From Beijerinckiaceae bacterium (lineage in GTDB: Bacteria; Pseudomonadota; Alphaproteobacteria; Rhizobiales; Beijerinckiaceae), in assembly GCA_947454485.1 (NCBI GenBank), contig CANGJJ010000003.1, forward strand, positions 186,001-250,000: 64,000 nucleotides of DNA. The letters are read 5' to 3'. Below the pieces are notes generated by a model. The model did not search any database, was not told the DNA's origin, and was given only the letters and a program-made list of their open reading frames with translations. Within the stretch, counting starts at the first letter, position 1. Each line of letters opens with the position of its first letter. Below are positions 36,938-43,930 of this stretch, one piece after another. The translations under genes and the position numbers were made by a program.

Positions 36938-36965
36938 GAAAGGCCGCCCCGAGGGACGGCCTTTC
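36938..36965 (-). terminator. terminator of the 25-codon gene
   Basis: A 9-bp stem GAAAGGCCG/CGGCCTTTC around CCCCGAGGGA. On the minus strand the sequence continues TTGTTTTG, giving a T-rich tail. It ends the short transcript starting near 37112. Confidence 0.75.
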
Positions 36966-37006
36966 CATTGTCATGACCGCGGCCCGTTCGGGTCACGAGG
37001 CGCCGC

Positions 37007-37084
37007 TCACGCGGGGCAAAACTCCTCACGAACAGGAGTCCAGATCCCGAATTCCGACCACCGCGGCTGAGGACAATGAGACAC
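37007..37084 (-). CDS. 25-codon ORF with a perfect Shine-Dalgarno site
   Basis: A tiny minus-strand frame that starts with GTG at 37084 and ends with TGA. Its peptide begins MSHCPQPRWSEFGIWTPVRE and ends EFCPA, with two Trp, two Phe and two Cys. Seven bases upstream, AAAGGAGGTGATCCA (37085-37099) is a full complement of the 16S rRNA 3' tail. A possible promoter TTGTAA-N16-CATACT lies at 37120-37147 and a terminator at 36938-36965, giving a transcript of about 175 bases. It could be a translated small protein, a leader, or an RNA that binds ribosomes. Not recognised by me as a named family. Confidence 0.55.
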   Translation of the reverse strand: MSHCPQPRWSEFGIWTPVREEFCPA

Positions 37085-37368
37085 TGGATCACCTCCTTTC
37101 GATTGTTGACGACAGGTTGAGTATGAATCTGATTCGCGGTTTTACAAAGAAAAGTTCTGCCTGAAAAAAATGCTCGGATGCACGAATGGTAGCCTTTGTG
37201 CTCCCAGCGCGTCACAGCGATTGTCCAATCTCTTATGGGCCTCAGCGCGCTCTTCCAGCTGATCCCCATGGTGCAGGCCTTTTCGGTGGGGGAGGTGCGG
37301 GCCGAAGGGGCGCGGATCCGGTACTGAGCGGGCGGCTTAACTTTTGGCTGCCAATAGGTCAGAAAGGG

Positions 37369-40276: not shown

Positions 40277-40306
40277 CTTGACGAAAACCGCTCATGCCGC
40301 CATGGT
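40277..40306 (+). promoter_or_regulatory. predicted promoter for the cysS-cimA leader
   Basis: CTTGACG (-35, 40277-40283) is followed at 17 bases by CATGGT (weak -10, 40301-40306). The expected start of transcription falls at about 40313, which is the A of the leader peptide ATG. Such leaderless leader peptides are known for trpL of Sinorhizobium. The -35 is good, the -10 weak. Confidence 0.45.
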
Positions 40307-40312
40307 GCGCGC

Positions 40313-40357
40313 ATGACGCACACGATCCTCATCTGCCGGATCATTATTATCAGCTAG
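40313..40357 (+). CDS. isoleucine-rich leader peptide of the cysS operon
   Basis: A 14-codon frame, [14 protein letters not shown], ending in TAG. Six of fourteen codons are Ile, four of them consecutive (40340-40351), with one Leu and one Cys. No Shine-Dalgarno is seen, but the predicted transcription start coincides with the ATG, so it could be read as a leaderless message. Its stop codon falls inside segment 1 of the RNA structure described next. The operon downstream includes citramalate synthase, an isoleucine-pathway enzyme, which fits an Ile-sensing role. Confidence 0.65.
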
Positions 40358-40424
40358 CGCTTTCGCTGGCCGGTGCCGTCTTGTCTTCACAACAAGGTCC
40401 GTCAACCGAGCCAGCAAGGCTCGG
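40353..40424 (+). promoter_or_regulatory. attenuator: three mutually exclusive hairpins controlling the cysS ribosome site
   Basis: Segment pairings read from sequence: 1:2 is GCTAGCG (40353-40359) with CGCTGGC (40364-40370); 2:3 is GCTGGCCGGT (40365-40374) with 40405-40415, ten pairs with one bulged A; 3:4 is CCGAGCC (40406-40412) with GGCTCGG (40418-40424). The 3:4 stem covers the first bases of the GGAG (40423-40426) ahead of the cysS ATG. A ribosome paused at the Ile codons would mask segment 1, favour 2:3 and free the ribosome site; one at the stop codon would mask 2 and allow 3:4. No U-run follows 3:4, so control should act at translation. Confidence 0.6.
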
Positions 40425-40431
40425 AGACCCT

Positions 40432-41852
<1,421 letters not shown>

Positions 41853-41856
<4 letters not shown>

Positions 41857-42344
41857 CAGCCTCTCTGCGTCCCTTTTTGAAAGAAGATCTCGAGCTTCTC
41901 GCCGAGATCTTCTGCGCGAGTATCGAAGGCCTCACGCAAGATGATTATGATGAGGAGCAGCGCGCGGCCTGGATGGCTGGTGTGCTGGAGGATGAAGAGG
42001 CCTTTTTGAAGCGCCTCACCGATCAGCTCACCATTCTCGTTCTGGAAGATGGCGACCCTGTTGGCTTTGCTAGCCTGCGCGGTACCGATGAGCTTGATCT
42101 CCTCTATGTCCATCCCGTCTATGCGCGCCAAGGCTATGGCACAGCGCTGGCGGATGCGTTGGAGCGATTGGCACATGGGCGCGGGGCCAAAGCCATTATC
42201 ACCAATGCGAGCGAAACGGCGCGGCCCTTCTTTGAAAAGCGCGGCTATGTCGGTCAATCGCGCAATACGATCATCATGGGCGGCGAATGGCTCGCCAATA
42301 CAGTGATGCGCAAAGATCTTGAGAAAGCGGAGAAGCTGCAATGA
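41853..42344 (+). CDS. GNAT-family N-acetyltransferase
   Basis: A 163-residue acetyltransferase between cysS and cimA. Strand-helix order starts [20 protein letters not shown], has [20 protein letters not shown] with the acetyl-CoA loop RQGYGT, and ends with [18 protein letters not shown], typical of GNAT proteins acting on small amines or peptides. GGAGGTC lies before the ATG, which overlaps the cysS stop. The stop overlaps the cimA start (ATGA at 42341). The tight coupling argues for one operon; its substrate is unknown. Confidence 0.85.
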
Positions 42345-43930
42345 GCCGCGAACGCCTTTATCTCTTCGATACAACTTTGCGCGATGGTGCGCAGACAACG
42401 GGCGTCGATTTTTCCATCGACGACAAGCGCAATATTGCGGGCCTGCTGGATGAGCTGGGCATCGACTATGTGGAGGGCGGCTATCCCGGCGCCAATCCGC
42501 TCGATACCGAATTCTTCAAAAAGAAACCGGTGAAGCGCGCGCATTTTGCAGCCTTCGGCATGACCAAACGCGCGGGCCGCTCGGCCTCTAATGATCCGGG
42601 CATTGCGGGCCTGATGGAGGCTGATGCCGATGTCATCACCTTTGTCGCCAAGACTTGGGACTATCATGTCCATGTGGCGCTTGGTTGCACGCTCGAGGAA
42701 AATCTCGATGGCATCGCCGACAGTATCAAATATGTGCGCCAGCATGGCCGCGAAGCGATTCTGGACTGCGAACATTTCTTTGATGGCTACAAGGCCAATC
42801 CCGATTATGCGCTGCAATGTGCGCGCACAGCCCATGAGGCTGGGGCCCGCTGGATTGTGCTGTGCGATACCAATGGTGGCTCACTCCCCCATGAGATCGA
42901 AGCCATTGTGACGGAAGTCGCCAAACATGTGCCGGGCTCGCATCTGGGCATTCATGCGCATAATGACACCGAAAATGCGGTGGCCAATTCTCTGGCGGCC
43001 GTGCGCGCAGGGGCTCGCCATATTCAAGGCACGCTGAATGGTCTTGGCGAGCGCTGCGGCAATGCCAATCTCACCTCGCTCATCCCGACACTTCTTCTGA
43101 AGAAGGACTATGCGGAGAAGTTCGAGATCGGCGTGGGCGCGGACAAGCTCGCCTCCATCACCAAGATCAGCCACACTCTGGATGAATTGCTGAACCGCGC
43201 GCCCAATCGCCATGCGCCCTATGTCGGCGCTTCGGCCTTTGCGACCAAGGCTGGCATTCATGCCTCGGCGGTTTTGAAAGATCCGCGCACCTATGAACAT
43301 GTGACGCCTGACAGCGTTGGCAATCAGCGCCGCGTTTTGGTCTCTGACCAAGCCGGCAAGTCCAACATTTTGGCCGAGCTTGAGCGCATCGGCGTGAAGG
43401 TTGCCAAAGATGATCCGCGCGTAACGCGGGTTCTGGAAGAAGTGAAAGAGAAAGAGGCCTTGGGCTATGCCTATGAAGGCGCCGATGCGTCTTTCGAATT
43501 GCTGGCGCGCCGGATGCTGGGCGAAGTGCCGAATTATTTTTCCGTCGAGCGTTTCCGCGTCAATGTGGAGCGCCGCCACAATGCTGCGGGCGAATTGGCG
43601 ACTGTTAGCGAGGCCATCGTCAAAGTCGTGGTTGATGGGGAAGAGTTCATCTCGGCCGCCGAAGGCAATGGCCCCGTCAATGCGCTGGATCTGGCGTTGC
43701 GCAAAGACCTTGGCAAATATCAGCGCTTCATTTCAGATCTGGAGCTGCTCGATTATCGTGTGCGCGTGTTTCAGGGCGGCACGGATGCCGTCACCCGCGT
43801 TCTGATCGAATTTGGCGATAAGGATGGGGCGCGTTGGTCGACCGTTGGCGTCTCGGCCAATATTATCGACGCCTCGTTTCAGGCGCTCACCGATGCCATC
43901 GTGTATAAATTGATGAAGGCCCAAGCTTGA
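42341..43930 (+). CDS. cimA: (R)-citramalate synthase
   Basis: A 529-residue alpha-isopropylmalate-synthase-family enzyme making citramalate from pyruvate and acetyl-CoA, the threonine-independent entry to isoleucine. N-terminal TIM-barrel marks are LFDTTLRDGAQTTGVDFS and the metal motif HAHNDTENAVANSLAAV, followed by HIQGTLNGLGERCGNANL. The C-terminal regulatory domain (residues about 395-529) would bind the feedback inhibitor isoleucine. The longer length than homocitrate synthase and the missing NifV-type context support CimA. Translationally coupled to the GNAT gene. A long hairpin follows. Confidence 0.92.
   Translation: MSRERLYLFDTTLRDGAQTTGVDFSIDDKRNIAGLLDELGIDYVEGGYPGANPLDTEFFKKKPVKRAHFAAFGMTKRAGRSASNDPGIAGLMEADADVITFVAKTWDYHVHVALGCTLEENLDGIADSIKYVRQHGREAILDCEHFFDGYKANPDYALQCARTAHEAGARWIVLCDTNGGSLPHEIEAIVTEVAKHVPGSHLGIHAHNDTENAVANSLAAVRAGARHIQGTLNGLGERCGNANLTSLIPTLLLKKDYAEKFEIGVGADKLASITKISHTLDELLNRAPNRHAPYVGASAFATKAGIHASAVLKDPRTYEHVTPDSVGNQRRVLVSDQAGKSNILAELERIGVKVAKDDPRVTRVLEEVKEKEALGYAYEGADASFELLARRMLGEVPNYFSVERFRVNVERRHNAAGELATVSEAIVKVVVDGEEFISAAEGNGPVNALDLALRKDLGKYQRFISDLELLDYRVRVFQGGTDAVTRVLIEFGDKDGARWSTVGVSANIIDASFQALTDAIVYKLMKAQA

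Follow-up and report, generated by a model that had tools for sequence, protein, structure and literature searches.

Why should a frame of 14 codons, six of which specify isoleucine, stand directly upstream of a gene for cysteine--tRNA ligase? The question is raised by a locus in the window, by which we mean the whole stretch of 64,000 nucleotides analysed here, from a bacterium of the Beijerinckiaceae. There a short frame, running from an ATG at 40313 to a TAG that ends at 40357 and containing six Ile codons (four of them consecutive) and one Cys codon, precedes cysS, a GNAT acetyltransferase gene and cimA, which encodes citramalate synthase. The original prediction took this frame for the leader of an attenuator that senses isoleucine, with the Cys codon as a possible second signal. 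Comparison with relatives argues that the element is a dual Cys/Ile attenuator, a reading that is well supported at the level of sequence.

The leader frame and its conservation in relatives

The window sequence agrees with the frame as originally described, and the identities predicted for the three downstream genes were borne out by the profile matches given below, that of the GNAT gene by a match below cut-off. The ATGA overlaps at both junctions of cysS-GNAT-cimA fit a single operon. The features of the locus are as follows.

40278..40283, + strand: -35-like hexamer TTGACG, 35 nt 5' of the leader ATG (sequence)
40301..40306, + strand: weak -10-like element CATGGT, matching the commonest bases in relatives
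40313..40357, + strand: leader ORF, probably leaderless (sequence, relatives, promoter-spacing rule)
40423..40426, + strand: GGAG, Shine-Dalgarno (SD) sequence of cysS (sequence)
40432..41856, + strand: cysS, cysteine--tRNA ligase (TIGR00435, above cut-off)
41853..42344, + strand: GNAT acetyltransferase gene, ATGA overlap with cysS (PRK09831.1, below its cut-off)
42341..43930, + strand: cimA, citramalate synthase, ATGA overlap with the GNAT gene (TIGR00977, above cut-off)

Pattern searches of the window locus returned no consensus sigma-70 promoter, and Rfam gave no match over the window leader at gathering scores, nor any in 11 cysS loci up to E 0.1. Elsewhere in the window, Rfam matches the sRNA CC2171 (RF01867) at 36940-37108 on the - strand (83.3 bits, E 1.4e-15).

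Leaders in relatives were called by a rule that ignores codon content and requires TTGAC or TTGAT 33-40 nt before an ATG or GTG that opens a frame of 10-40 codons, the candidate nearest to 36 nt being preferred. For the genus-level set, a single cysS locus was taken from each genus of the order (91 fetched, of which 90 contained cysS; L151 was dropped because its stretch held no cysS). A leader was called in 71 of the 90 real cysS upstream regions; shuffling gave 89 calls in 3600 trials, and the reverse strands gave 2 in 90. The distance from TTGA to the start codon is 35-37 nt in 64 of the 71 leaders, where the rule itself admitted 33-40 nt and preferred 36, and the profile of the 71 has C, A and T as the commonest bases at -13, -12 and -11.

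Of 30 cysS loci from relatives, 27 have a leader by this rule; the three others are L002 and L006, whose upstream DNA is missing, and L028, in which the rule called none. In 26 of the 27 leaders, at least two Ile codons occur together with Cys; the exception is L030, from the window's own genus, whose leader contains Ile but no Cys (MTRIARISRSTIIS). A covariance model built from 26 loci (L002, L006, L015 and L028 were left out of the alignment) hits, at E 0.01, 126 of the 199 genomes from the order, representing 65 of 93 genera. The matches total 127, 24 of them without a listed cysS; of the 103 with a listed cysS position, 100 lie directly upstream of cysS and the three others are weak, with E 0.002 or more. 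GCTAGC and GCTGGC do not vary in the first alignment, of 26 sequences. The covariance-model matches, together with the rule counts in real as opposed to shuffled and reverse-strand DNA, indicate that the leader is conserved beyond chance, and the Ile run, whose conservation the original prediction had named as a check, holds across genera. The leader, its Ile run and the alternative pairings described below are real and conserved.

An SD 4-mer is found before the leader in 3 of 71 loci, as against 48 of 71 before cysS. This scarcity, together with the 35-37-nt TTGA spacing, makes the AUG of the leader the probable 5' end of the transcript; in the window, the start point is the one predicted from promoter spacing.

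Isoleucine and cysteine codons and the linkage of cimA

All 65 genus-level rule-called leaders with a same-strand downstream cimA contain at least two Ile codons and at least one Cys codon, a content that leaders from shuffled DNA attained in 8 of 3600 trials. Ile accounts for 27.0% and Cys for 10.1% of leader codons (n=1069), Leu for 2.8% and Val for 1.9%, and in frames +1 and +2 of the same DNA Ile falls to 1.7% and 0.7%. Counted back from the stop, Ile occupies codon -3 in 63 of the 65 leaders and codon -4 in 58, with a second peak at codon -8 (38 of 65). Differences between leaders show no third-position excess (587, 797 and 794 at positions 1, 2 and 3), so that conservation is limited to the Ile and Cys codons and does not extend to the peptide as such. 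Frame +2 (DHYYQLA...) was considered as an alternative frame and rejected, being interrupted by stops in several relatives, as seen by eye, and there being no Ile enrichment in +1 or +2.

For the Cys codon, which had been offered as an optional second signal, the occurrence of Cys in every one of the 65 linked leaders and its retention where Ile is lost (see below) speak for a larger part, but L030 does without it. By this distribution, Cys codons make up half of the putative signal in their own right.

The occurrence of the leader depends on the position of cimA. At the 87 judgeable loci (L081, L126 and L140, in which the locus ends too near, were excluded before the test), a leader was called by the rule in 65 of 76 with linked cimA vs 3 of 11 lacking such linkage (Fisher p=1.4e-4). 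Among the 11 linked loci for which no leader was called, one can be seen by eye in four (L109, L112, L118 and L150), with a variant start, a variant promoter or short upstream DNA.

Two genera repeat this dependence at closer range. In genus g73, we read 14 genomes, seven with cimA beside cysS and seven with cimA at least 24 kb off or on another contig; where several candidates were listed, the one in the usual place was taken by eye. Leaders of the linked genomes are of the type MTAFPRFNGIICCGIITG, with 3-4 Ile codons, whereas those of the unlinked genomes, such as MSAFKRLDCLCCCGLPAA and MAFRRVFLLCCRDVLAG, have 0, 0, 0, 0, 0, 0 and 1 Ile codons and retain 2-4 Cys codons. The tree needs two changes for this loss of Ile and is compatible with one, so that we count it as probably one or two events, not seven. 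In genus g83, cimA lies 3.7 kb on in G479, whose leader has three Ile codons; in G171, a GFA gene on the opposite strand splits cysS and cimA, and the leader has no Ile codon and two Cys codons. Where cimA has moved, in three genomes of g73 and two of g26, no Ile leader was found at its new place.

Two side observations concern these moved genes. In g73 (L234 and L235), cimA is preceded by a small ORF resembling the C-terminus of CysS (24 of 57 residues identical, E 2e-10, for the pair tested, that of L234 alone), which might mean that the end of cysS was carried along or duplicated in the move. In g26 (L232 and L233), cimA directly follows another gene, aspS-like by eye, and cysS has no called leader.

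The same association is found in larger groups. Of the 59 matching genomes of family f34, 30 were read (G107 is counted here and in the genus set); a leader with at least two Ile codons and Cys is present in 28 of 28 genomes with cimA in view and in 0 of 2 without. The order of genome G353, which we take to be Rhodobacterales (30 of 80 matching genomes read), likewise has an Ile/Cys-rich leader in 28 of 28 genomes with cimA and in 0 of 2 without cimA in view, the leaders here having been picked by their Ile and Cys content and not by promoter spacing alone. No Ile/Cys-rich leader was found in seven genera whose examined genomes lack a close cimA match, of which g28, g59, g12, g65 and g9 have only distant matches (~30% identical) and g85 and g60 none. 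One genome contradicts the association: no cimA match was found in G235, which belongs to family f34, yet its leader keeps three Ile and two Cys codons, perhaps because cimA was lost recently. With that exception, the codons of the leader appear to follow the composition of the operon.

Alternative pairings and the output step

The RNA segments of the window that bear on attenuation are these.

40315..40321, + strand: segment 0 (leader start), GACGCAC; by eye, forms 7 bp with segment 2', a single C being bulged, the pairing list giving GACG/CGTC
40353..40359, + strand: segment 1, GCTAGCG; takes in the stop codon of the leader and pairs with segment 2
40364..40370, + strand: segment 2, CGCTGGC; pairs with segment 1 or 3
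40373..40380, + strand: segment 2', GTGCCGTC; partner of the leader start
40379..40388, + strand: pyrimidine/U-rich tract after the leader hairpin (71-leader profile)
40406..40415, + strand: segment 3, CCGAGCCAGC; pairs with segment 2 or 4
40418..40424, + strand: segment 4, GGCTCGG; overlaps the cysS ribosome site

The three pairings that had been predicted can all form in the window: 1:2 joins GCTAGCG (40353-40359) to CGCTGGC (40364-40370), 2:3 joins GCTGGC (40365-40370) to GCCAGC (40410-40415), and 3:4 joins CCGAGCC (40406-40412) to GGCTCGG (40418-40424), overlapping the GGAG before the cysS ATG at 40432. A small hairpin, CTTGT/ACAAG, also lies between segments 2 and 3 (40380-40396, + strand), and some relatives have GTCTTG/CAAGAC-like arms, noted by eye, at its place.

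Covariation was assessed on the pairing energy of each locus's own arms, set against that of arms exchanged among 69 loci (those of the 71 whose leader lies within 160 nt of cysS; the accessibility tests used the same 69). Own arms are the stronger in 58 of 69 loci for 2 x 3 (p=1.9e-9) and in 49 of 69 for 1 x 2 (p=1.2e-5); for 3 x 4, the figure is 44 of 69 (p=7e-3). Thus, although 1:2 and 2:3 covary, 3:4 does so only weakly. A further helix, 0:2', which is missing from the original prediction, covaries as strongly as 2:3: for the first 14 nt of the leader vs stop+4 to stop+28, own arms are stronger in 58 of 69 loci (p=5.7e-9). This helix was first spotted by eye in loci later tested, and the strongest window had been labelled a control; the window first chosen for 0 x 2' gives 45 of 69 (p=3.8e-4). 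Examples of its arms in relatives are ATGACGGC/GCCGTCAT, ATGCGAACCC/GGGTTCGCAT and GAAAACCGT/ACGGTTTTC. Four unrelated pairings have stronger own arms in 28, 26, 29 and 35 of 69 loci; in one of the four, the leader start with the SD region, own arms are weaker than swapped ones (p=0.03). The stop codon joins the pairing, TAGC with GCTG, TAAC with GTTG and, by eye in L198, TGAC with GTCA.

The order of G353 provided a mostly fresh repeat (two of its 30 loci, G353 and G254, had been examined earlier), in which own arms are stronger in 24 of 28 loci for 0 x 2' (p=9.4e-6) and in 22 of 28 for 2 x 3 (p=1.3e-3), with p=0.06 for 1 x 2 and p=0.12 for 3 x 4. Family f34, in which there is little sequence variation, gives p=6.7e-3 for 1 x 2, p=0.09 for both 0 x 2' and 2 x 3, and p=0.78 for 3 x 4.

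How a change of pairing might reach cysS was examined through the predicted accessibility of its ribosome site. In 46 of 69 loci (p=1.5e-4), the cysS SD becomes more open with segment 2 freed than with a shuffled version of it, as it does in the repeat sets in 24 of 28 (p=1.1e-4) and 20 of 28 (p=8.9e-3). For the start codon, the same comparison gives 52 of 69, with p=0.099 and 0.25 in the repeat sets. When the stalled state is compared with the full leader, the start codon is more open in 47 of 69 loci (p=3.8e-4) and the SD gives p=0.055; a first, cruder test of SD accessibility, in which the leader start was omitted, gave no significant result (40 of 69, p=0.13). In minimum-energy folds of the window, hairpin 3:4 stays in every state, even with segment 2 free, so that the energies of this single locus do not readily show the switch. 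For the earlier proposal that 3:4 covers the cysS site and that 2:3 opens it, the computed support is modest: segment 4 overlaps the GGAG and SD opening exceeds that obtained with shuffled segments; the covariation of 3:4 is weak.

A second possible output is suggested by the tract that follows the leader hairpin. In the profile of the 71 leaders, T and C dominate from stop+22 to stop+33, and the densest 8-nt window holds a mean of 4.5 T vs 3.0 in shuffled UTRs, with at least 5 T in 8 nt at 36 of 71 loci. This U-rich tract makes termination a live rival output.

Proposed mechanism, rival explanations and known leaders

The element is very probably a ribosome-mediated attenuator that reads two aminoacyl-tRNAs, those for Ile and Cys. 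What is observed is the codon content and its dependence on cimA, the covariation of 0:2', 1:2 and 2:3, and the scarcity of SD sequences before the leader. From there we infer a course of events in which the transcript would begin at the leader's AUG and its 14 codons would be translated quickly, after which the ribosome would depart; 0 would then pair with 2' and 1 with 2, leaving 3 free for 4 and the cysS ribosome site covered. A shortage of charged tRNA-Ile or tRNA-Cys would stall the ribosome. Placed at the two Ile codons that lie 3-4 codons ahead of the stop, the stalled ribosome would hide segment 1, and placed further up it would hide segment 0; either stall would free segment 2 for 3 and uncover the cysS start, so that the response would be a joint rise of cysS, the GNAT gene and cimA. 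Termination at the U-rich tract may be the output in place of this, or in addition to it. A fuller version of the proposal, which we hold to be evenly poised between right and wrong, is that a leaderless frame of ~13-20 codons serves as an OR gate, with Cys codons for the ligase gene and Ile codons for the biosynthetic gene, that its codon menu is edited as genes join or leave the operon, and that, once a first ribosome has passed, the AUG is locked by the helix that joins the start codon to 2', allowing one reading per mRNA.

The rival that concerns the output alone keeps the dual sensor and makes the leader hairpin (0:2' and 1:2) plus the U tract an intrinsic terminator, whose action a stalled ribosome would prevent, 2:3 and 3:4 being secondary. 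The T/C dominance after the hairpin and the T density at 36 of 71 loci favour this reading, as does the terminator proposed in the passages on the Rhodobacterales motif uORFC-8-2 (PMC8632094); the other 35 of the 71 loci lack 5 T in 8 nt, pattern searches found no terminator at the window locus, and segment 3 lies beyond the tract, which would leave the strongly covarying 2:3 without an antiterminator role. We therefore regard termination as a possible but doubtful main output. That the leader senses Cys only, on behalf of cysS, with its Ile codons incidental, is what was proposed for uORFC-8-2 in the part of that paper dealing with it (PMC8632094), and it would account for the Cys codons of all 65 linked leaders and their persistence when cimA leaves. 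Yet Ile is the most frequent residue and occupies codon -3 almost throughout, it is Ile that is lost and Cys that is kept on the departure of cimA in two genera, and L030 has Ile and no Cys, all of which makes a Cys-only sensor very unlikely. The invariance of GCTAGC and GCTGGC in the first alignment and the lack of a third-position excess would also suit an untranslated RNA or DNA element, protein-binding or structural, with the reading frame as a by-product; but of the three frames only the one beginning at the predicted 5' end shows enrichment in Ile and Cys, and the numbers of these codons follow cimA linkage, so that we judge such an element highly improbable.

The preferred reading, a dual Ile/Cys attenuator, has several partial precedents. 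More than one amino acid is also read by the leader of E. coli ilvGMEDA, an attenuator with Ile codons. Sinorhizobium meliloti presumably belongs to the same order as the window. The polycysteine sORFs of mycobacteria come from a different phylum, precede different genes and have contiguous Cys codons only; leaderless ones are said to have been described by Canestrari et al. in 2020. In the parts of the work concerned with them, the Cys codons of these leaderless mycobacterial sORFs set downstream expression, and the likeness to the present element lies in a leaderless short ORF with Cys codons (PMC9031893). The trpL leader of S. meliloti, as its description in PMC10117765 has it, is a leaderless frame of 14 codons read by ribosomes, but it reads Trp and belongs to the attenuator of trpE, whereas the window leader would read Ile and Cys. 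For the Caulobacter ilvBN leader, the relevant passages describe Ile codons in an attenuator that reads more than one amino acid (PMC4117421); such ilv leaders read related branched-chain amino acids, whereas the present ones have few Leu or Val codons and combine Ile with Cys.

The closest likeness is to uORFC-8-2, which, in the account given of it (PMC8632094, RNA Biol 2021), comprises 145 examples upstream of cysS in Rhodobacterales, has a tandem pair of Cys codons, ends in a run of U, was read as Cys attenuation and is stated to be exclusive to that order. Both elements lie directly upstream of cysS in Alphaproteobacteria and have a short ORF with conserved Cys for which ribosome-mediated attenuation is proposed. 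Isoleucine does not occur in the main text of PMC8632094, and the passages on the motif mention neither cimA nor a leaderless start, unlike what we describe for the window element, which also has one Cys codon, not two in tandem, and comes from another order. The U run of the motif compares with the tract called here at about half the loci and not in the window. Tandem Cys codons are common in the leaders from the order of G353, although not at positions 14-15, as given for uORFC-8-2 in that description (PMC8632094); with many of these leaders having tandem Cys, they and uORFC-8-2 are probably the same element.

Searches of a literature that took in few subscription papers yielded neither a dual Ile/Cys leader nor a cimA link of a cysS leader, and the name uORFC-8-2 in no other paper. 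What appears new is therefore the isoleucine half with its cimA link, the reach beyond one order and the start-codon helix; the Cys half matches uORFC-8-2. If the proposal is correct, a large alphaproteobacterial group ties the charging of tRNA-Cys to isoleucine synthesis by way of one tiny frame, and a published one-order Cys motif is widened to a dual sensor in several orders. Natural gene moves would reveal which codon serves which gene, providing a ready test of control-codon evolution, and the start-codon helix would suggest a testable lock on a leaderless mRNA.

As to that reach, the window's order appears to include Methylobrevis, Stappia and Lutibaculum, which would place the element outside Rhodobacterales. 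In other orders, a TTG-anchored rule found an Ile+Cys leader in only 4 of the 60 loci read (60 of the 142 matching genomes of the class were fetched). A bare sequence pattern matched at least 119 stretches in a one-genome-per-species collection; among the matches listed, 112 of 119 lie upstream of cysS, 3 lie elsewhere and 4 are undecidable, and Stappia, Roseibium, Microvirga, Pseudovibrio, Chelatococcus and Labrys are represented. Among the 112 cysS-upstream stretches listed, cimA lies within 6 kb in 75, the other 37 ending too early. The exact pattern matches away from cysS are L255, L261 and L348, two of which are titled Thermanaeromonas and Actinobacteria; they may reflect chance or mislabelled bins.
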